Shown in pieces: positions 2,133 to 64,000 of a DNA stretch of 64,000 bases. The notes under the pieces are model-generated. The model saw nothing but the letters and a program-made list of their open reading frames with translations. It searched no databases and was not told the DNA's origin. The stretch is taken from positions 62,001 to 126,000 of the forward strand of contig NZ_JANUDY010000004.1 of the NCBI RefSeq assembly GCF_024809975.1, read 5' to 3'. The stretch is from Comamonas sp. BIGb0152 (GTDB taxonomy: Bacteria > Pseudomonadota > Gammaproteobacteria > Burkholderiales > Burkholderiaceae_C). Numbering within the stretch: the stretch's first letter is position 1; the number at the start of each line of letters is the position of its first letter. The position numbers and the translations under genes are program-made.

Positions 2133-3096
2133 TCATTCCACCTTGGCGCCACTGGCCTTGACCACCGCACCCCAGTGCGCGCGCTCCGAATCGACGAGGG
2201 CTTTGAAATCTTCTGGCAGGCCCGCCAGCGGGGTGTAGGCCATTTTTTCGAGTTGCGTTCTGATCGCGGGCGTCTTGAGCACCTGGTTCAAGGCCGTGTT
2301 CAGATGCACCACCACATCACGCGGTGCGCCGGGCGGCAGCAGCAAGCCGCCCCAGGCATTCATCACAAAACCCTCCACACCGGCCTCTTGCATGGTCGGC
2401 AGATCGGGGTACTGGAAATAGCGCTTGGCACTGGTCACCGCCAGCGCACGCACCTTGCCAGCTTGCAGCTGCGGGGCGGCGGTGACGATGTTTTCAAAGT
2501 AATAGTGCAGGTTGCCGCCAACTAGATCGTTCAGTGCCTGGGGTGAGCCCTTGTACGGAATGTGCTGTGCAGATTTCAGCTCCATCCGAGTCTTGAACAG
2601 CTCGGCCCCCAAATGGCTGGTGGTACCAATACCGCCTGAGCCATACTGCACCAGATTGCCTGCACTTTTGACATAGGTCACCAACTCCTCGACGGTGGTG
2701 ACGGGAACCTGGTTGCTCACCAGCAAAAAGCTGCTGGTGGTAGCAATGCCGCCAACCGGCACCAGGCTGCGCGGGTCGTAGGGGAGTTTGCTGAAAAGAA
2801 ACTCATTGGTCGTCAACGTGGCATTGTTGCCGTAGCCCAGGGTGTAACCATCGGGCGCCGCGCTGACCAGCGCCTGCATGCCTATGTTGCCACCCGCACC
2901 GCCTCTGTTTTCAATCACCACCGGCTGGCCCAGCTGCAGCGACAGCGCATTGCCGATCAGGCGCGTGAGCACGTCGGGGCTGCTGCCAGCCACGCTGGGC
3001 ACAATGATCTTGATGGGTTTTTCAGGGTAGGCCGCGTGCGCGGTGCAAGCCAGCAGCGGCCATCAGCAAACGGCGTGAAAACAGAGCAGCAGCCAT
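2133..3096 (-). pseudogene. Bug/TctC-family tripartite tricarboxylate transporter binding protein, frameshifted in the signal peptide
   Basis: The mature protein is intact and typical of Bug periplasmic binding proteins: AYPEKPIKIIVPSVAGSSPD, then IENRGGAGGNIG, DGYTLGYG, and an end at KASGAKVE. The only start with a ribosome site (GGGAG before the ATG at 3096) opens a signal peptide MAAALFSRRLLMAAAG that is in a different frame and hits a stop at 3022. The mature frame has a stop just upstream and no good start. A one-base gain, or an equivalent loss, near 3045-3055 separates the two. Loss of one copy of a GGCTT repeat would explain it. Either the gene is inactive or the sequence has an error here. 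It leads the deacylase operon. Confidence 0.7.
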
Positions 3097-3333
3097 GGAG
3101 TTTCTCCCGAAGATTGGAGTACTGGTAAAGGGACCGGCTGGTATGCAGCCAATGCCCCTCTGCCCTCCTCCTGTTGAACCTAAGATCCTGCACGGCATAG
3201 CGTCCAAGACAGATTCATTCTGTTCTGAGTCTTTCCAAAAATCTGCTGAATTAACAACAACCTACCAAAGCAACATGTGCAAAAAGCAGGAGAGGGCAAC
3301 AGAAGGCCGCAGAGCCAAGCACAGAGCGTCCAT

Positions 3334-3367
3334 AAAAAAGCCCGTCGGCTTTCATGCCAACGGGCTC
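3334..3367 (-). terminator. Rho-independent terminator of the 2-aminoadipate operon
   Basis: On the minus strand a 10-bp GC-rich stem (GCCCGTTGGC with GCCGACGGGC, one G-U pair) around an ATGAAA loop is followed by six Ts. It lies about 25 bp after the aminotransferase stop. Confidence 0.85.
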
Positions 3368-3390
3368 GGGTGCTATGGCTTGGCTAGCGC

Positions 3391-4599
3391 TTACTTGGCT
3401 TTATCAAATGCTTCAGTCAGCCTATCAACGGCTTGCTCGATCTGCGCCACATCGGGCGCTGCAAATGACAGACGCATCGAATGCAGATTGGCATGGTCGG
3501 CATAGAAAGCCTTGCCCGGCACAAAGATCACGTTGGCGGCGACGGCGGCATCAAACAGCTTTTGCGGATCGATGCGGGTGTCGAAGGTCATCCAGACAAA
3601 CATGCCGCCCGCGGGCTGCACAAACTGCACCAGATCGCCCAGGCGCGCTTTCAGCCCCTGGGTGAGGGCCTGCATGCGGCGCTGGTACTCCGCGCAGGCC
3701 TTGGCCACCGCTTGTGGATAGCGGCCGGACTGCAGATAGCTGGCAGCCACGGCCTGCGCCAGGGGCGAGGTGCAGAGGTCATTGGTCTGCTTGGCCACGG
3801 TGCAGCGGCGCAGCACCGCCGGGTCGGCCACCATCCAGCCCACCCGCAGGCCGGGGGCCACGGTTTTGGACAGGCTCGACAGGTAGACCACCGGGTTCTC
3901 GCTGCCCGCCACTTGCTGCTGGGCCGCGGCATAGACGGGTGCGGGGCGGGCATCGGTAAAGGCCAGCTCGCCATAGGGATCGTCCTCAACCACCACAAAG
4001 CCATACTGCAGCGCCAGCTGCACCAAGCGCTCGCGGCGCTCTTGTACCAGCAAGGTGCCGCAGGGGTTGGAGAAGTTGGGCACCGTGTAGAGCAGCTTGG
4101 GGCGCTCGGCCACGGGCAGCGCGGCCAGCAGGGCCGCCAGCGCCTCCACATCCAGGCCATCGCCATCCACCGGTGTGCTCAATATCTTGGCGCCCGCCTG
4201 GCGCAGCGCCGCAATGGTGGCGGGGTAAGCGGGGGTTTCCACACAGACGGCATCACCGGGCTGGATCAGCACGCGCAGCAGCAGGTCAAATCCCTGTTGC
4301 GATCCAGTCGTCACCAGCACATCGGCAGCGCTGCAGCGGATGCCGCGCTCTTGGCACTGGGCGGCCAGCTGCTCGCGCAGCGCGGGTGAGCCTTCGGTGG
4401 CGCCGTATTGCAGCGCGGTGGCGCCCGTGGTCATGGCCTGCGCAGCGGCGGCGGCCAGGCCTTCTTGGTCAAACAGGCTGGGCGACGGGTAACCGCCGGC
4501 CAGCGAGATCATGCCAGGGCGGCTGAGGTAGGGAAACAGCTCGCGGATGGGCGAGCCTTGCGGGTTGGCAAATGCGGGCGTGAATTGAAAAAAGGACAT
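3391..4599 (-). CDS. PLP-dependent aminotransferase, 2-aminoadipate transaminase (LysN-like)
   Basis: A 402-residue fold-type I aminotransferase (class I/II) without the GntR head seen in MocR regulators. Landmarks are LAGGYPSP (33-40), the cofactor-loop VTTGSQQG (96-103), NPCGTLL (178-184), the Asp/Tyr pair in VEDDPYGEL (204-212), and the Schiff-base lysine in SSLSKT (Lys245). These match the LysN/2-aminoadipate aminotransferase group. Third gene of the operon after hglS and the FAD dehydrogenase, 71 bp downstream of the latter. In that context it would convert 2-aminoadipate to 2-oxoadipate, the HglS substrate. The enzyme class is certain; the substrate is inferred from context. Confidence 0.85.
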   Translation of the reverse strand: MSFFQFTPAFANPQGSPIRELFPYLSRPGMISLAGGYPSPSLFDQEGLAAAAAQAMTTGATALQYGATEGSPALREQLAAQCQERGIRCSAADVLVTTGSQQGFDLLLRVLIQPGDAVCVETPAYPATIAALRQAGAKILSTPVDGDGLDVEALAALLAALPVAERPKLLYTVPNFSNPCGTLLVQERRERLVQLALQYGFVVVEDDPYGELAFTDARPAPVYAAAQQQVAGSENPVVYLSSLSKTVAPGLRVGWMVADPAVLRRCTVAKQTNDLCTSPLAQAVAASYLQSGRYPQAVAKACAEYQRRMQALTQGLKARLGDLVQFVQPAGGMFVWMTFDTRIDPQKLFDAAVAANVIFVPGKAFYADHANLHSMRLSFAAPDVAQIEQAVDRLTEAFDKAK

Positions 4600-56787: not shown

Positions 56788-58911
56788 TTAGAACTGCTTG
56801 ATAAAGCCCAGAGAAACCGCACGCCCCTGCAGCGGCGCCGCGTTCTTGATGAACGAGGTGTGCACATAGGCCAGCTTATTGGTCAGGTTGTCCAGCTTCA
56901 GGTAGATCTGCCAAGGCGTGCCGTCGCTGGAGGTCTGGTGGTAGCTGACGCGCCAGTTCAGCATGCCGTAGCCGGGGGTCTCGCTTTCATAGTCGGCCAC
57001 CTTGTTCTGGCGCTTGACCAGCTGCCACTGCGCCTCGCTGCGCCAGTTGGCCCATTTGCCAGCCACGCGCAAGCCCACACGGGCAGGGGCCAGGCGCGGG
57101 ATCTTGCTGCCGTCTTCCAGCTTGGCATGCACCAGGTCACCGGTGGCGCCCACCGTCCAGTTCGCATCGATGCGGTGCTGGATCTGGCCTTCCAGACCGG
57201 TGAAGGTGGCAGTCTGCTGCGCATACTGCAGCAGCTGCAGGCCGTCGTGCTCATCGACGGTGCGACCGTAGATGTAGTTGTTCACCCGGTTGCGGTAGAC
57301 ATTGACCGAGAAGGTCGTGTCGCCCGCCGTGCGTGCCAGCCCAATGTCGATATTGCTGGAGCGCTCCTTGCGCAGATCGGGGTTGCCCAGCTCGTAGGTG
57401 GAGGTGGCCATGTGCAGGCCGCGCGCATACAGCTCTTCGGCCGTGGGCAGGCGGCTGGCCGAGGTGACATGGGCGCTCAAGCGGTAGCCCGGCATAAAGC
57501 GCCAGCTGCCGCCCAGCGACAGCGAATTGCCCTTGTGCTTGCGCACCAGGCCGTCGTCGTTGGCATACACGCTTTGCCAGTCGTGGCGCAGTGCGGCCTC
57601 GACGCCAAAGTCGCCAAAGCGGCGCTCTTCGAGCAGGTAGACGCCCTGGCTTTGCGTGCGGGTCGGCTGCACATAGGCTTCCTCACCGGTGGCGCTAAAG
57701 CGGCGCTGCGCAGCCTCAAAACCCAGCACACCGGTCCAACCGGCGATGGGCTCATGCAGCACATCCACACGCAGGTCATGCGCGCGGTTCTTGAAGCTGG
57801 TGGAAATCTCGCCGCCCTCGATCTCGTCGTGGTGGTAGCGCGTCACACCCCCGCGCAGGCGGATGGCTGAGACGCCGGCAAACGGCTTGCGCCATTCGGA
57901 GCGCAGGTCATAGCGCTCGCTGTGCATGTCCACCACCGGCACGCCCTCTTCCTCATGGTCGTGGTCATGGTCGTCGTCTCCATGGTCGTGGCCGTCATGG
58001 CCGCCGCAGTGCAGGTGCAGACCATGGGTGTGGCAGCCCTCAAAGCTGTGGTTGTGGCCGGGCAGGCCATAGCGCGCCTGGGTGCGGGTGTAGGCCAGGC
58101 CCACATAGCCGCTGTCACCGATCCAGGACAGGCCAATGCTGCCGCCGGCATTGCGCGCGCGGCTGCCTTCCACCTTGTTGCCCAGGCCCCAGCCGCTGCC
58201 CACGCGGTAGTCATCGGCATTGCGGGCCATGCCCTCTACATGCAAGGCAAAGGGGCCCGAGCCCGCCGTCAACGACAGCGCGGTCGCGGCATCGTTGGCG
58301 CCCGTGCCGGCACGCACCTCGACCTGGCCTTCATAGCCCTTCTCGGGCACCTTGGTGGGGATCTTGTTGTCCAGCACATTGACCACGCCGCCAATCGCAC
58401 CGGCACCATAAATCAGTGCCGAGGGGCCGCGCAGCACCTCGATCTGGGTGGCCAGCATGGGCTCGCTCACCACCGCATGGTCGGGGCTGATGGTCGATGC
58501 GTCCTGGATCACCGCACCGTCGTTCAGCACCTTGACCCGCGCGCCATCCATGCCCCGGATCACCGGCCGGCTCGCACCTGCACCAAAGTGCGTGGCCTGG
58601 ATGCCGGGCTCATTGGCCAGGGTCTCACCCAGGCTGGCGCCACGTTTTTGAACCAGTTCGTCGCCCTGCAGCACGGTCACGGGGGTGGTCATGTCGTCGA
58701 CCGTGCGGTTGGTGCCGCTGGCCGATACCGTCACCTCGGGCAAGGTGGTGGCCGTGGCCGGGGCTGCACCCTCGGCGTTCTGGGCCATTGCCGCGCTGCT
58801 GAGCAGCAGGCCGGCCACAGCGGCGGCCACCGGGCGCAGGTTGCGGGCCTGCGGCTTGAAAATTGCGGTGCGCGCCAGCAGCGGCTGCGCCTGTTGTGCA
58901 TGGAAACCCAT
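56788..58911 (-). CDS. znuD: TonB-dependent receptor with histidine-rich loop (ZnuD-like zinc receptor)
   Basis: A 707-residue outer-membrane receptor. Signal peptide ends near AMA-QN; a TonB-box-like LPEVTVSAS (57-65) leads into the plug (VIRGMDGARVKVLNDGAVIQD; EVLRGPSALIYGAGAIGGVV). Residues 286-319 form an extracellular loop with about 14 histidines, several Asp, and Cys293 and Cys302. The barrel ends in IKQF. His-rich loops of this kind capture Zn2+ in Neisseria ZnuD. GAGGGG precedes the ATG. It lies downstream of a small His/Cys protein gene and a Fur/Zur-like site, consistent with zinc-starvation control. Confidence 0.9.
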   Translation of the reverse strand: MGFHAQQAQPLLARTAIFKPQARNLRPVAAAVAGLLLSSAAMAQNAEGAAPATATTLPEVTVSASGTNRTVDDMTTPVTVLQGDELVQKRGASLGETLANEPGIQATHFGAGASRPVIRGMDGARVKVLNDGAVIQDASTISPDHAVVSEPMLATQIEVLRGPSALIYGAGAIGGVVNVLDNKIPTKVPEKGYEGQVEVRAGTGANDAATALSLTAGSGPFALHVEGMARNADDYRVGSGWGLGNKVEGSRARNAGGSIGLSWIGDSGYVGLAYTRTQARYGLPGHNHSFEGCHTHGLHLHCGGHDGHDHGDDDHDHDHEEEGVPVVDMHSERYDLRSEWRKPFAGVSAIRLRGGVTRYHHDEIEGGEISTSFKNRAHDLRVDVLHEPIAGWTGVLGFEAAQRRFSATGEEAYVQPTRTQSQGVYLLEERRFGDFGVEAALRHDWQSVYANDDGLVRKHKGNSLSLGGSWRFMPGYRLSAHVTSASRLPTAEELYARGLHMATSTYELGNPDLRKERSSNIDIGLARTAGDTTFSVNVYRNRVNNYIYGRTVDEHDGLQLLQYAQQTATFTGLEGQIQHRIDANWTVGATGDLVHAKLEDGSKIPRLAPARVGLRVAGKWANWRSEAQWQLVKRQNKVADYESETPGYGMLNWRVSYHQTSSDGTPWQIYLKLDNLTNKLAYVHTSFIKNAAPLQGRAVSLGFIKQF

Positions 58912-59085: not shown

Positions 59086-59559
59086 TCACTGGAACAAGGA
59101 GGGGGTAGGAGAAGGAGGCCCGCGCGCAAAGAACAGCGCCGGGCTTTGCCGCAGCAAGATGGCCAGCACGGTCGCTGCCGTTTCTTGCACAGCGCGCAGC
59201 AGGGGTGCCTGCAAGGAATGGCTGAGCAGGCCTGCGCCCAGGGCCATGTGGGAGAAGCCCTGGCAGTCGGCTTCGGAATGCTTGCCAAACAGGTCATGCA
59301 CGCCATGGCCGCTGCTGGCCACGGCATCGCCGCTGTCGCGCTCGGCGGCCGATGCCGTCGCGGTCACCGCAGCCGTCTGCAGCGTCCGGGCATACAGGTG
59401 GCTGATGTCATGGAGCTTGCCCAGCAGCGGCAGGCACAGCTGCGCCAGGCACAGCCAGCACAGCAACACCATCGCCCAGCCACGCAGCGGCCTCGGCGCA
59501 GGCGCCGAGACAGACAGGGGATGGAGAGCGCGCAGGGAAGACACAGGCCGGGCAGACAA
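59086..59559 (-). CDS. Small membrane-anchored protein with His/Cys motif, likely zinc regulon
   Basis: A 157-residue protein: a proline-rich cytoplasmic start, one membrane helix (about 27-47, Cys-rich), then a periplasmic part with His50, His54, His85, His88, His94, Cys99 and His104 (GHGVHDLFGKHSEADCQGF). A second hydrophobic stretch lies near 119-138. It resembles the small DUF2946-type proteins often found next to metal-related TonB receptors, but I cannot confirm the family. It precedes the ZnuD-like gene on the same strand by 174 bp. A role in handling zinc is inference. Confidence 0.6.
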   Translation of the reverse strand: MSARPVSSLRALHPLSVSAPAPRPLRGWAMVLLCWLCLAQLCLPLLGKLHDISHLYARTLQTAAVTATASAAERDSGDAVASSGHGVHDLFGKHSEADCQGFSHMALGAGLLSHSLQAPLLRAVQETAATVLAILLRQSPALFFARGPPSPTPSLFQ

Positions 59560-59714: not shown

Positions 59715-60188
59715 TTACAAAAAACGTTCCAGCAGCTTGCGCGAGGCCTTGTCCAGCCGGTTGGTATCCGGCAGCCGGTAGTGCACGCCATCGGCCGAGG
59801 TGATCAGCAGGTTCTGCCGGCCATGGAGCTTGCGGATGTCTTCCTCGGCCTTCAAGGTCATGTCCACCGGGCCCCGGTCGGTCTCCAAGGTCCAGATGCT
59901 GGGCACCGAGAAGGTGGAGACGCTGACGATGCGCTCGATCAGCGGCTGGAACTCGCGCGCGGCCAGGTCTTCTTCCAGCAGCGCGCGGGCGGCCGGGTCT
60001 ACCGCCTCCATATCGGCGATCCACAGCACTTCCTTGCCGTCTTCACCAATCAGCGAAATGCCCAGCAAGGGGGCCGACAGTGGAAAGGCGCGCACGGGAT
60101 TGACCTGGTGCGCTGTGCCGTCCTTGAGGAACACCAGGCGGCCAAAGCTGTTGCGGCTGAGCGCCAGCGGAGAGGAAATGGTTGTCAT
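59715..60188 (-). CDS. DUF1854 protein associated with cyanophycin genes
   Basis: A 157-residue protein of the DUF1854 family with conserved segments SFGRLVFLKDGTAHQVNPVRAF-type N-terminus, GISLIGEDGKEVLWI, FSVPSIWTLETDRGPV and LLITSADGVHYRLPD. No signal peptide or membrane helix. It starts 24 bp after the ABC exporter gene, so they are cotranscribed. The family is regularly placed beside cyanophycin synthetase in betaproteobacteria; its biochemical role is unknown to me. Confidence 0.85.
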   Translation of the reverse strand: MTTISSPLALSRNSFGRLVFLKDGTAHQVNPVRAFPLSAPLLGISLIGEDGKEVLWIADMEAVDPAARALLEEDLAAREFQPLIERIVSVSTFSVPSIWTLETDRGPVDMTLKAEEDIRKLHGRQNLLITSADGVHYRLPDTNRLDKASRKLLERFL

Positions 60189-60212
60189 GAAAAGTCTTTC
60201 CTGGGCTGCAGA

Positions 60213-62561
60213 TCAGCGGTTGTCATCGGACGCATCCACATGCGCTTTGGGGATGGGCTGGATGTCATAGGTCACGCCTGCGGCGCGCGCAGTCACCACG
60301 CCAGCGGCTTCTGCATCCTCCTCGGCACGGCGCGCCTGCGCCATATACAACCGCCAGTAGGCGCCCTCCTGGGCCATCAGCGCGTCGTGCGATCCCACCT
60401 CGACAATCTCGCCCCGGTCCATCACCACCAGGCGGTCGGCCTTGCGCAAGGTTGACAGGCGGTGGGCAATCGCAATGGTGGTGCGGCCCTGCACCAGGTT
60501 GTCCAGCGCCCGCTGGATTTCCTTCTCGGTCTCGGTATCCACGGCCGAGGTGGCCTCGTCCAGGATCAGAATGCGCGGGTCGATCAGCAAGGCGCGCGCA
60601 ATGGAGATACGCTGGCGCTCCCCGCCCGACAGGCCCTGGCCGCGCTCGCCCACCAGCGAGTCATAGCCGTAGGGCAGGCGCAAGATGAACTCATGCGCAT
60701 GGGCGGCGCGCGCTGCGGCCACAATCTCTTCGCGCGTGGCATCGGGCTTGCCGTAGGCAATGTTCTCGGCGATGGTGCCGAAGAACAAAAACGGCTCCTG
60801 CAACACCAGGCCGATGTTGCGGCGGTAGTCAGACACGGCAATGCGGCGCACATCGACGCCATCGAGCTGGATCGAGCCATCGGTCACGTCGTAGAAGCGG
60901 CTGATCAGGTTGACCAGGGTGCTCTTGCCCGAGCCGCTGTGGCCCACCAGGCCAATCATCTCGCCGGGGCGGATCTGCAGGTTCAGGCCCTTGATGACGG
61001 TGCGGCTGCCGTAGCGGAAGCCAACGTTGTCCATCGTGATGGCACCCTGCACCTTGCCCAGCTTGACCGGGTTGACCGGGTCGGGCACGTTGCTGACATG
61101 GTCGAGGATGTCGAAAATGCGCTTGGCACCAGCGGCGGCCTTTTGCGTCACCGACACGATGCGGCTCATCGAATCCAGCCGGGTGTAGAAGCGGCCGATG
61201 TAGGCGATAAAGGCCGTCAGCACACCAACGGTGATCGAGCCACCCGCGACCAGGTAGATACCGAAGGCCCAGACGATCAGCAGGCCGATTTCCGTCAGCA
61301 GGGTGACCGTGGGCGTGAACAGCGACCAGGTCTTGTTGACCCGGTCATTGGCTTCCAGGTTGACCTGGTTGGCCGCGGCAAAGCGGTCGGCCTCGCGCTG
61401 CTCTTGCGCAAAGGCCTTGACGACACGGATCCCGGGGATGGTGTCGGCCAGCACATTGGTCACTTCGGACCAGACGCGGTCGATCTTCTCAAAGCCGGTG
61501 CGCAGCCGGTCGCGCACGGTGTGGATCATCCAGGCAATAAAGGGCAGCGGCACCAGGGTGACCAGGGCCAGCCAGGGGTTGATCGAGAACAGGATGGCCG
61601 AGGTCATCACGATCATCAGCACATCGGTTGCAAAATCCAGCGCGTTGAGCGACAGAAAGAGGTTGATGCGGTCGGTTTCGGCGCCGATACGGGCCATCAG
61701 GTCACCGGTGCGCTTGCTGCCATAAAAATCGAGCGACAGCTTGAGCAGGTGGTTGTAGGTGGTGGTGCGCAGGTTGGCGCCAATACGCTCGGACACCCGG
61801 GCCAGAACAAAGGTGCGCGCCCAGCCCAGCAACCAGGCCACCAGCGCCGACAGCAGCAGCGCGCCCAGGTAAAAGCGCACCAGGCCGGCATCGATCTTCT
61901 CACCGTTCTGGAACGGGATCAGGATCTTGTCCATCAGCGGAATCGTCAGGTACGGCGCCACCAGCTGGGCCGCCGTGGTGCCCAAGGTCAGCATAAAACC
62001 CAACAACAATTGCATCTTGTAGGGTTGGGCAAAGCGCCACAGGCGCAGCAGCACCCAGCTGGAGGTGGGGGCGTTTTGCTGGCGCGCGCAGGCCGGGCAT
62101 TCCTCGCTATCGGGGGGCAAGACGCTGGCGCATACCGGGCACAGCGCGCGCTCGTCGGCCACCGCCTCGTAGGCTTGGTTGCGCAGCAAGCGCTCGCGCT
62201 GGCGCTCAAACTGCTGCACCAGGCCCAGCACCGCCGTCTGGTGTGCCAAGGTGATGCGCCACAACCCCAGGCGCTGCGTGCTGTCGTGCAGCTCCAGGCT
62301 GCCAATGCCGCCATGGTCAAAAAAACGCAGGGCCAAGTCAGAAGATAGTGCCCACTCACTCCATTGCTGGCTGCCTGGATCAAAGGCCAGCAGGCGCTCG
62401 GACGTCAAGACCACCTGGCCGCTGCCAAAACGCAAATCCGCCGTCAGGTCAACCGGAGTGACGGCAAGCACGTTTTCCAAAGTATGGAGCTTGGCTCGCA
62501 AGGGGGTTCCGAGCGGGCCCGCAAAGAATGCTGACGCGTCCGCGGAATGTTGATGTTGCAT
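60213..62561 (-). CDS. ABC exporter with PH-like region and zinc ribbon, cyanophycin-associated
   Basis: A 782-residue fused exporter. Residues 1-130 contain a compact beta-rich region ([37 protein letters not shown]) resembling a bacterial PH/GRAM domain. A zinc ribbon follows with Cys141, 144, 155 and 158. Six membrane helices span about 180-470 (type IV exporter fold), then Walker [10 protein letters not shown] (540-548), Q-loop LVLQEPF, signature [10 protein letters not shown] (644-653), Walker B ILILDEA and H-loop His700. It is divergent from cphA and followed by DUF1854. The start at 62561 has GGAGAG 13 bases away, longer than ideal; an ATG at 62618 lacks any ribosome site. Confidence 0.88.
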
Positions 62562-62800
62562 ATGGCGTGTTTTTCTCTCCGCACTCGGCGGTGGCTGTTG
62601 TCCGGTGAACAACCGCATATTATTGTGGCGAATAACTTGTGACGAATAACAGCACAGGCTGATCCATCCTCATCTGTCTTTAACGTCTGACACGTCCAAT
62701 TGGCTGACAGAGGTTAATCTGCCTTATTTGGGCGCACAATGCTTTCCCATCTACGGCGATTCCCGTTGGAATTGTTACTTATGTTTATCCGTTGATCGAT
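62562..62800. promoter_or_regulatory. Divergent promoter region of the cyanophycin locus
   Basis: A 239-bp AT-enriched gap between the exporter gene and cphA. It holds two direct copies of CGAATAAC (62629-62636 and 62643-62650, 14-bp period) and an imperfect inverted repeat GTTGT/ACAAC near 62597-62613. No gene is visible, and the sites have no assigned regulator. Confidence 0.4.
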
Positions 62801-64000
62801 ATGGCGAAATTCAATACCATCCAACTCTTGCGCACCACGTTTTTGCGCGGCCCCAGCGTCTGGACCTACCGCCCCGTACTGGAGGTCTGGCTGGACCTCG
62901 GAGAGCTGGAGGACTATCCCTCGAACAAGATCCCCGGACTGAACGAGCGCCTCACCACCTGGCTGCCCGATCTGATCGAGCACACCTGCGGCGTCGGTGA
63001 GCGCGGCGGCTTTATCCAGCGCCTCGAAGGCGGTACCTGGATGGGCCATGTGATGGAGCACGTGGTCATCGAGCTGCTGAACCTGGCCGGCATGCCCGCC
63101 GAGTTCGGCCAAACGCGCGAGATCTCCAAGCGCGGCGTCTACCGCATGGTGTTCCGCTGCCCCGAAGAGGCCGTGGCCCGCGTCGCGCTGGAGCATGGCC
63201 ACCAGCTGCTGATGGCCGCCATCAACGACGAGCCCTACGACATCAAGCCGGCGGTCCATGCGATCAAGACGGCGATCAATGACCGCTACCTCGGCCCCTC
63301 GACCGGCTGCATCGTCGATGCCGCCAGCGAGCGCCGCATTCCCCATATCCGCCTCAATGACGGCAACCTGGTGCAACTGGGCTATGGCGCGGCACAGCGC
63401 CGCATCTGGACGGCCGAGTCCGACCAGACCAGCGCGATTGCCGAAGGCATTGCCCAGGACAAGGACTTCACCAAGCGCCTGCTGACCGCCTGCGGCGTGC
63501 CCGTGCCCGAAGGCCAGATCGTGGCCACACCCGAAGAAGCCTGGGCAGTGGCCCAAGAGATCGGCTTTCCCGTCACCGTCAAGCCCTCGGACGGCAACCA
63601 CGCCCGGGGCGTGACCCTGGAGCTGTCGCAAGAGGCCGATATCAAAACCGCCTTCGCCCTGGCCCAGCCCGAAGGCTCGGATGTGATCGTCGAGAAGTTC
63701 ATCGACGGCGTCGAGCACCGCCTGCTGGTGGTGGGCGACAAGGTCGTCGCTGCCACCAAGGGCGAAACCGTCAGCGTCTACGGCAATGGCAAGTCCAGCC
63801 TGCGCGAGCTGGTCGCCGTGCTTAACGAAGACCCACGCCGTGGCCCCGAGCAGGAATACCCGCTCGACTGGATCAAGCTCGACGCAGGCGCTGTCAAGCT
63901 CGAACTCAACCGCCAGCATGTCACCCCCGATTCGGTCATTCCCCAAGGCCAGGGCGTGCTGCTGCAGCGCAATGGCAACATGGCCATCGACTGCCTTGAT
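62801..64000 (+). CDS. cphA: Cyanophycin synthetase, N-terminal part (3' end outside window)
   Basis: An open frame of 400 codons runs to the window edge. It starts MAKFNTIQLLRTTFLRGPSV, the typical start of betaproteobacterial CphA. Residues 1-160 are the N-terminal primer/polymer-binding domain (EHTCGVGERGGFIQRLEGG; MEHVVIELLNLAG). From about 220 the ATP-grasp domain begins (FTKRLLTACGVPVPEG; TVKPSDGNHARGVTLEL; VEKFIDGVEHRLLVVGDKVV), which adds Asp to the backbone. The Mur-ligase half that adds Arg lies beyond the window. Product: the multi-L-arginyl-poly-L-aspartate nitrogen store, in the cytoplasm. The ribosome site is weak. Confidence 0.95.
   Translation, partial: MAKFNTIQLLRTTFLRGPSVWTYRPVLEVWLDLGELEDYPSNKIPGLNERLTTWLPDLIEHTCGVGERGGFIQRLEGGTWMGHVMEHVVIELLNLAGMPAEFGQTREISKRGVYRMVFRCPEEAVARVALEHGHQLLMAAINDEPYDIKPAVHAIKTAINDRYLGPSTGCIVDAASERRIPHIRLNDGNLVQLGYGAAQRRIWTAESDQTSAIAEGIAQDKDFTKRLLTACGVPVPEGQIVATPEEAWAVAQEIGFPVTVKPSDGNHARGVTLELSQEADIKTAFALAQPEGSDVIVEKFIDGVEHRLLVVGDKVVAATKGETVSVYGNGKSSLRELVAVLNEDPRRGPEQEYPLDWIKLDAGAVKLELNRQHVTPDSVIPQGQGVLLQRNGNMAIDCLD

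Follow-up and report, generated by a model that had tools for sequence, protein, structure and literature searches.

The window analyzed here, 64,000 nucleotides of contig NZ_JANUDY010000004.1 of Comamonas sp. BIGb0152, ends in a divergent gene block that comprises a DUF1854 gene and an ATP-binding cassette (ABC) exporter gene on the minus strand and a cyanophycin synthetase gene on the plus strand (Table 1). A preliminary description of this DNA had reported a fused exporter with a cytosolic head and a DUF1854 gene 24 bp away, an arrangement that was borne out by the open reading frame (ORF) coordinates, by NCBIfam and Pfam scores, and by a structural model of the head. The pair had also been placed back to back with cphA. 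The divergent layout stands, but the identity of the gene does not: the window gene is a degenerate paralog (729 amino acids [aa]), here called cphA', which runs past the window end with 981 bp of the gene lying outside. The full CphA gene (861 aa) starts 81 bp after the end of cphA', beyond the window (L002:3063-5648).

The window proteins pass the curated cut-offs of NF052234 (150 bits), NF052233 (880 bits), and PF08909 (26.8 bits), and the exporter is encoded with a cyanophycin synthetase (i.e., the divergent cphA'-cphA pair). NF052233 and NF052234 are NCBIfam equivalogs already named "cyanophycin metabolism-associated," and the bare association of the exporter and DUF1854 with cyanophycin is therefore not new. 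These names state the association only; added here are a divided synthetase, a contrast in cyanophycinase content, and relatives of the module in genomes without CphA. Given that Met20 of the exporter ORF is nearly invariant across relatives, the start is probably at position 62561, which would leave ORF residues 1 to 19 outside the real protein. The nearest named relatives, among the best 80 of 585, belong to Comamonas.

Table 1. Features of the gene block at the window end and of related loci in CphA-free genomes
Feature	Position	Strand	Basis
DUF1854 gene, 157 aa	59715..60188	-	NF052234 201 bits, PF08909 150 bits; model pLDDT 91
ABC exporter ORF, 801 aa; start probably Met20 (62561)	60213..62618	-	NF052233 1388 bits; Met20 nearly invariant
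PH-like strand-rich head, residues 45-146	62181..62486	-	Block pLDDT 85-95, 7 strands + C-terminal helix
Zinc-ribbon cysteines C160, C163, C174, C177	62088..62141	-	Sequence; weak zinc-ribbon Pfam matches
ABC_membrane domain, residues 204-477	61188..62009	-	PF00664 150 bits
ABC_tran ATPase domain, residues 543-691	60546..60992	-	PF00005 118 bits; ATPase motifs invariant in 38 sequences
Intergenic gap separating the divergent cphA' and exporter ORFs	62619..62791		ORF positions
cphA' first part, degenerate synthetase with N-domain peptidase site	62792..64000	+	Active-site mapping; Pfam N domain 127 bits
Exporter with same head + DUF1854	L263:8612-12718 (G562)		CphA-free genome
Exporter with same head + DUF1854	L264:2606-5304 (G389)		CphA-free genome

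Linkage of the exporter and DUF1854 to a pair of synthetases

DUF1854 was found in 50 of 150 genomes drawn evenly from the order. All 50 carry the exporter over its cut-off (eight detected in one scan and 42 in another, G019 twice) and also CphA', a second copy of the synthetase, which is nearly full-length in G274, G338, G377, and G384. This complete co-occurrence supports the earlier proposal that the exporter and the DUF1854 protein form one unit tied to cyanophycin synthetase. CphA exceeded its cut-off in 53 of the 150 genomes, namely, 48 of the 50 DUF1854 genomes together with G286, G327, G353, G362, and G367. The other two DUF1854 genomes (G258 and G276) have the short paralog, with the full gene split in two or lying past a contig end. 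Four of the genomes with complete CphA (G286, G327, G353, and G367) lack CphA', DUF1854, and the exporter, so the link follows the CphA'/CphA pair (once an undivided CphA, in G185; see below) and not cphA as such. A phylum draw of 249 genomes yielded 12 with the exporter and 14 with CphA over the cut-offs, and all 12 are within the 14.

The loci retained for comparison were the best 80 of 585 relatives in the genome collection and hence represent the closest relatives of the window block. The divergent order of the four genes is unchanged in 66 of these loci (65, and L119 if its cphA', which matches as two pieces, is counted), which argues that the layout is not due to chance. A partial gene set was found in 12 loci, of which 11 are cut by a contig end, and DUF1854 stands alone at contig edges in 2. 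L123 is the sole uncut locus with a different, unrelated ABC gene near DUF1854. In L119 (Diaphorobacter aerolatus), the two pieces of cphA' (about 2155-4431, minus strand) apparently reflect a frameshift or sequencing error, and the rest of the block is present.

Division of the active sites between CphA and CphA'

Catalytic residues were mapped on 108 CphA and 118 CphA' sequences, with the N site taken from PMC9262961 and the G and M sites from PMC9427784; the sequences include close relatives, and the counts are therefore not independent events. In CphA, residues H57, C59, and R70 are deleted in all 108 sequences and position 83 is His in only one, so the peptidase site is lost, and the synthesis residues R309, N394, S396, G456, R458, K499, and E558 are kept throughout. 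CphA' keeps C59, H79, and E82 in 117 of the 118 sequences and H83 in all of them, and it has lost the aspartate-adding site, with the S396-T397-G398 loop deleted in 118/118 and R458 replaced by Leu in 115/118. Most CphA' sequences, but not all, have lost the M site: K499 persists in 17, of which 9 also have the M-domain lid. A stricter M P-loop pattern was found in 0 and the N motif in 120 of the 121 sequences sorted as CphA', a set that includes L176 (not CphA') and L119 (split). Eight synthetases unlinked to the exporter keep all seven synthesis residues (8/8) and nearly always C59 (7/8).

Sequence divergence was compared at the 105 loci with both proteins. On average, pairs of CphA sequences are 72% identical in the M core and 62% in the N domain, against 51% and 63%, respectively, for pairs of CphA' sequences. 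In a 66-row tree, the sequences of CphA', those of CphA, and those of the unlinked set are each confined to one side of a branch with a Shimodaira-Hasegawa-like approximate likelihood ratio test (SH-aLRT) support of 100. For the whole window CphA' protein, Pfam finds the N domain (127 bits) and no Mur ligase domain.

These comparisons provide good support for a division of the CphA1 active sites, in which CphA' retains the primer-making peptidase site of the N domain and CphA both synthesis sites. Trifunctional CphA1 has intact N, G, and M sites; CphA shares its two synthesis sites and CphA' its N-domain site, but neither has all three, and the window CphA' belongs to a family without the S396 loop and R458 and itself lacks the M P-loop pattern. 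The M-domain P-loop lysine and lid are usually absent from CphA', as in cyanobacterial CphA2 (PMC9427784). However, CphA2 combines a working G site with the lack of an N-domain motif (for the latter, see PMC9262961), whereas the window CphA' keeps this motif and lacks the S396 loop of the G site. At position 267, where CphA1 has a catalytically important His, 106 of the 108 exporter-linked CphA sequences and G185 have Gln, whereas 115 of the 118 CphA' sequences have His. We found no description of the CphA'/CphA division in the open-licence literature consulted, with subscription papers and preprints being outside the scope of this search, and its novelty is not established.

The genome G185, from outside the class, has a single CphA, which retains all three motifs, next to its exporter and DUF1854 genes. 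This arrangement suggests that the link to the exporter is older than the division of the synthetase, although the genome is 93% complete and 8% contaminated and the contig is possibly a contaminant.

Cyanophycinase is rarely found alongside the exporter

The cyanophycinase profile TIGR02069 scored over its cut-off in four of the 54 genomes with the exporter (G267, G298, G310, and G342) and at a looser threshold of E<=0.001 in 7 of them. The same profile was over the cut-off in all six exporter-free CphA genomes (G286, G327, G353, G367, G083, and G086; Fisher p about 4e-6, uncorrected for kinship, with three of the six exporter-free genomes coming from one family). The best cyanophycinase match of G298 adjoins a second CphA locus, apart from its exporter. 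The window genome itself (G000) has no TIGR02069 match at E<=0.001, other cyanophycinase types not having been searched, and on this profile it lacks the cyanophycinase half of a CphA and CphB storage system. The low count agrees with the 2023 survey of PMC10206079, in which a recognizable cyanophycinase is reported for only 2.8% of 903 beta-proteobacterial CphA1 genomes and its lack is called unanticipated, and with PMC5178258, which in 2016 recorded no cyanophycinase in Betaproteobacteria. What is new here is that the absence of cyanophycinase goes together with the exporter. As the usual degrader of cyanophycin is mostly missing, the product may be pumped out rather than stored.

The same observations could be accommodated by ordinary storage, in which CphA' would be the missing cyanophycinase, the polymer would stay inside the cell, and the exporter would remove a by-product or excess dipeptide or arginine. 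The peptidase residues kept in CphA' and the scarcity of recognizable cyanophycinase are both compatible with this scheme, as is the presence of IadA and/or IaaA in 70.9% of beta-proteobacterial CphA1 genomes (survey data in PMC10206079). However, the N-domain activity described in PMC9262961 is an endo-cleavage tuned for primers, not dipeptides, and storage would leave the constant presence of the exporter unexplained. We consider this scheme rather unlikely.

The exporter and its DUF1854 partner

The window protein has the architecture of type IV (ABCB-like) exporters, such as MsbA, Sav1866, TM287/288, and TmrAB, with fused membrane (PF00664) and ATPase (PF00005) domains and intact ATPase motifs, and the solved-structure matches listed for it are all type IV exporters. 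It differs from MsbA-type exporters in its N-terminal PH-like head and zinc ribbon, its DUF1854 partner, and its clade-specific charged membrane residues. The exporter was modeled with AlphaFold2 from 38 aligned sequences. The whole model is weak (mean predicted local distance difference test [pLDDT] score of 67), and only the head was taken from it; a fold search with the whole model returned the same relatives as the sequence search. The head is modeled as a folded block and not as an unstructured extension, with strands at residues 50-58, 64-72, 75-79, 86-90, 96-102, 105-111, and 116-123 followed by a helix at residues 124-146. PH domains consist of seven strands and then a C-terminal helix, an order that the modeled head matches. 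The term "PH-like" is accordingly a claim on the order of elements only. The PH/GRAM-like character suggested from the sequence therefore stands at the level of element order but not of sequence, with no PH or GRAM family match in Pfam for the window protein, for its head, or among the families listed (25 of 52; 22 heads). Among the matches listed, those of the heads are mostly weak ones to zinc-ribbon families.

The two cysteine pairs noticed in the head are present in the window exporter, but they are common rather than universal among its relatives. They are missing in seven members (L013, L084, L090, L214, L217, L231, and L232), in which the strand-rich part nevertheless persists in sequence; in the last four (genomes G323, G364, G317, and G251), the strand-rich head is still recognizable even though the ribbon cysteines are gone.

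The model of the DUF1854 protein is beta-rich with two helices. Foldseek detected no match to it in the PDB at E<=0.001, and the protein sequence gave a single chance-level match to PDB sequences (E 0.98). Among the weak Foldseek matches was the tandem-PH protein Rtt106, which we did not take as evidence, and homology between the head and DUF1854 was unsupported (hhalign probability, 6.7%). A tblastn search of plasmids gave no DUF1854 match, and the term "DUF1854" was not found in the open-licence literature searched.

With both the head and DUF1854 predicted to be soluble folded parts, and with their genes divergent from cphA', the module might be a sensor instead of a pump: the two parts would bind the polymer or the granule surface, and the ABC protein would link this binding to control of the paired synthetases at the membrane. 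This is very improbable in our judgment, given that the ATPase motifs are invariant in the 38 sequences, as expected for an active pump, and that seven members lack the zinc ribbon. Nothing that we found points to the handling of granules, which had been raised as a possible role of the module.

The membrane part (residues 190-500) was compared among 40 linked exporters, the CphA-free pair from G389 and G562, and 18 generic exporters. Positions were retained if they were charged in >=90% of the linked exporters and uncharged in G389 and G562 and in >=80% of the generic ones. The 13 qualifying positions are 195, 243, 268, 277, 316, 328, 369, 377, 380, 443, 476, 480, and 493. The exporter of G185 is charged at all of them except 195 and 380, with the opposite sign at 377, and position 243 lies in an insertion absent from the others, leaving a net count of ten positions common to G185. 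R476 and R480 are in the last predicted helix of the model (464-508). A charged substrate, for which an Asp-Arg peptide would qualify, fits these positions but is not proved by them.

Elsewhere in the window, a gene for a TonB-dependent receptor (56788-58911, minus strand) encodes Pfam Plug and barrel domains and a long His/Asp-rich stretch, which hints at a metal receptor. Between this gene and DUF1854 is a 157-aa ORF (59086-59559) that has no Pfam match. Clustering of the neighbors downstream of DUF1854 mostly yielded overlapping and antisense frames.

Export as a candidate function

We tentatively favor an explanation in which the exporter moves the product of CphA and CphA' (i.e., short Asp-Arg peptides) out of the cytoplasm, with the whole block acting as one system. 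CphA, which has intact aspartate- and arginine-adding sites and has lost the N-domain peptidase, would produce an Asp-Arg polymer. CphA' has kept the peptidase and lost the aspartate-adding site, for which reason it is proposed to act in trans, cutting the polymer to primers and short soluble oligomers; in the N-domain work of PMC9262961, this domain is an endo-cyanophycinase-like primer maker that works in trans when isolated. The DUF1854 protein would assist from the cytosol by delivering or gating the substrate, and the exporter with its PH-like and zinc-ribbon head would carry the short charged peptides across the membrane. If the peptides are exported, recovery by cyanophycinase would not be needed. 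R. eutropha has two synthetase homologs, and no cyanophycin was seen in the wild type (PMC11362209, in a passage citing Adames 2013).

Several observations weigh against export. No outer-membrane partner gene was identified for the block, and a cyanophycinase over the cut-off is present in four exporter genomes. CphA' is not everywhere reduced to a peptidase, as indicated by the nine sequences that keep both the lysine and the lid, and the 18 generic exporters of the charge comparison are perhaps one clade. Tetrasphaera genomes are reported to contain cphB together with two cphA genes, one long and one short (PMC10687191), meaning that two copies alone are no mark of an export system, which weakens the argument from linked losses. 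Finally, the exporter-DUF1854 module occurs in G389 and G562, in which no CphA was found at E<=1e-60, and it is thus wider than cyanophycin and not cyanophycin-specific by nature.

These two genomes came from a class draw of 369 genomes, in which DUF1854 was found in 10, three of them already known. G474, G591, and G688 have the exporter and two synthetase copies, and G686 (78% complete) has the exporter and DUF1854 on a short contig, with no CphA found. G389 and G562 encode a divergent exporter (562 and 589 bits, respectively, under the 880-bit cut-off) with the same head and cysteine pairs. DUF1854 is the next gene in both and, unlike that of the window, scores under its cut-off (77 and 101 bits). 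Two genes precede the G562 pair, one for a winged-helix HTH_34 regulator and one for a 356-aa protein that has no match in Pfam. G428 has only a DUF1854 remnant, with no exporter at E<=1e-150; its 110-aa ORF (L265:9944-10276), which starts like the 356-aa protein of G562 and ends as DUF1854, appears to be what a deletion has left of the module. Strict cyanophycin specificity of the exporter is ruled out by G389 and G562. Most exporter-DUF1854 pairs in our samples are nonetheless in CphA genomes, and a predominance in genomes without cphA, which the preliminary description had named as refuting its proposal, is borne out only to the extent of these two pairs.

Such relatives raise the alternative of a recruited neighbor, in which the module would carry a different substrate, be it a lipid, drug, or signal, and would have become fixed beside cphA' through shared regulation or history. 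The same head-exporter-DUF1854 arrangement without CphA is consistent with recruitment, as are the multidrug, peptide, and lipid exporters that are the nearest characterized or solved relatives and the DUF1854 match over the Pfam cut-off in a control genome, Sulfolobus acidocaldarius, which extends the family to archaea. Against recruitment stand the co-occurrence in 50/50 genomes of the order sample, the linkage to the undivided CphA of G185, and the clade-specific charged residues, which suggest a changed substrate. On balance, recruitment seems about as unlikely to us as ordinary storage, and we place export of the peptides ahead of both.

Implications for cyanophycin metabolism

A related arrangement appears in a 2023 survey of activated-sludge bacteria (PMC10687191), in which the Group 1 cphA cluster likewise combines two copies of cphA with an unclassified ABC transporter and lacks cphB. 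That survey reads the cluster as a possible composite transposon with flanking insertion sequences, and its main text does not mention DUF1854. The block described here is a variation on families that already have names, and its implication is unexpected and testable. As judged from residue and gene-order comparisons, its linkage and its divided active sites are well supported.

In the survey of PMC10206079, cyanophycin is treated as known only as a storage material. It is conceivable, though doubtful at present, that cyanophycin synthesis in beta-proteobacteria is largely an export pathway, in which a two-protein synthetase makes and trims Asp-Arg peptides and a dedicated exporter, with its PH-like head and DUF1854 partner, sends them to the periplasm or outside. 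A dedicated exporter together with the split between synthesis and trimming would provide a concrete, testable reason for the missing cyanophycinase in this group. Expression cannot adjust the two activities relative to each other when a single enzyme carries both (PMC9262961); the divided CphA/CphA' pair could set the balance between synthesis and trimming in this manner. Such an exporter would also reopen the fate of cyanophycin in a large bacterial group, members from activated sludge included.

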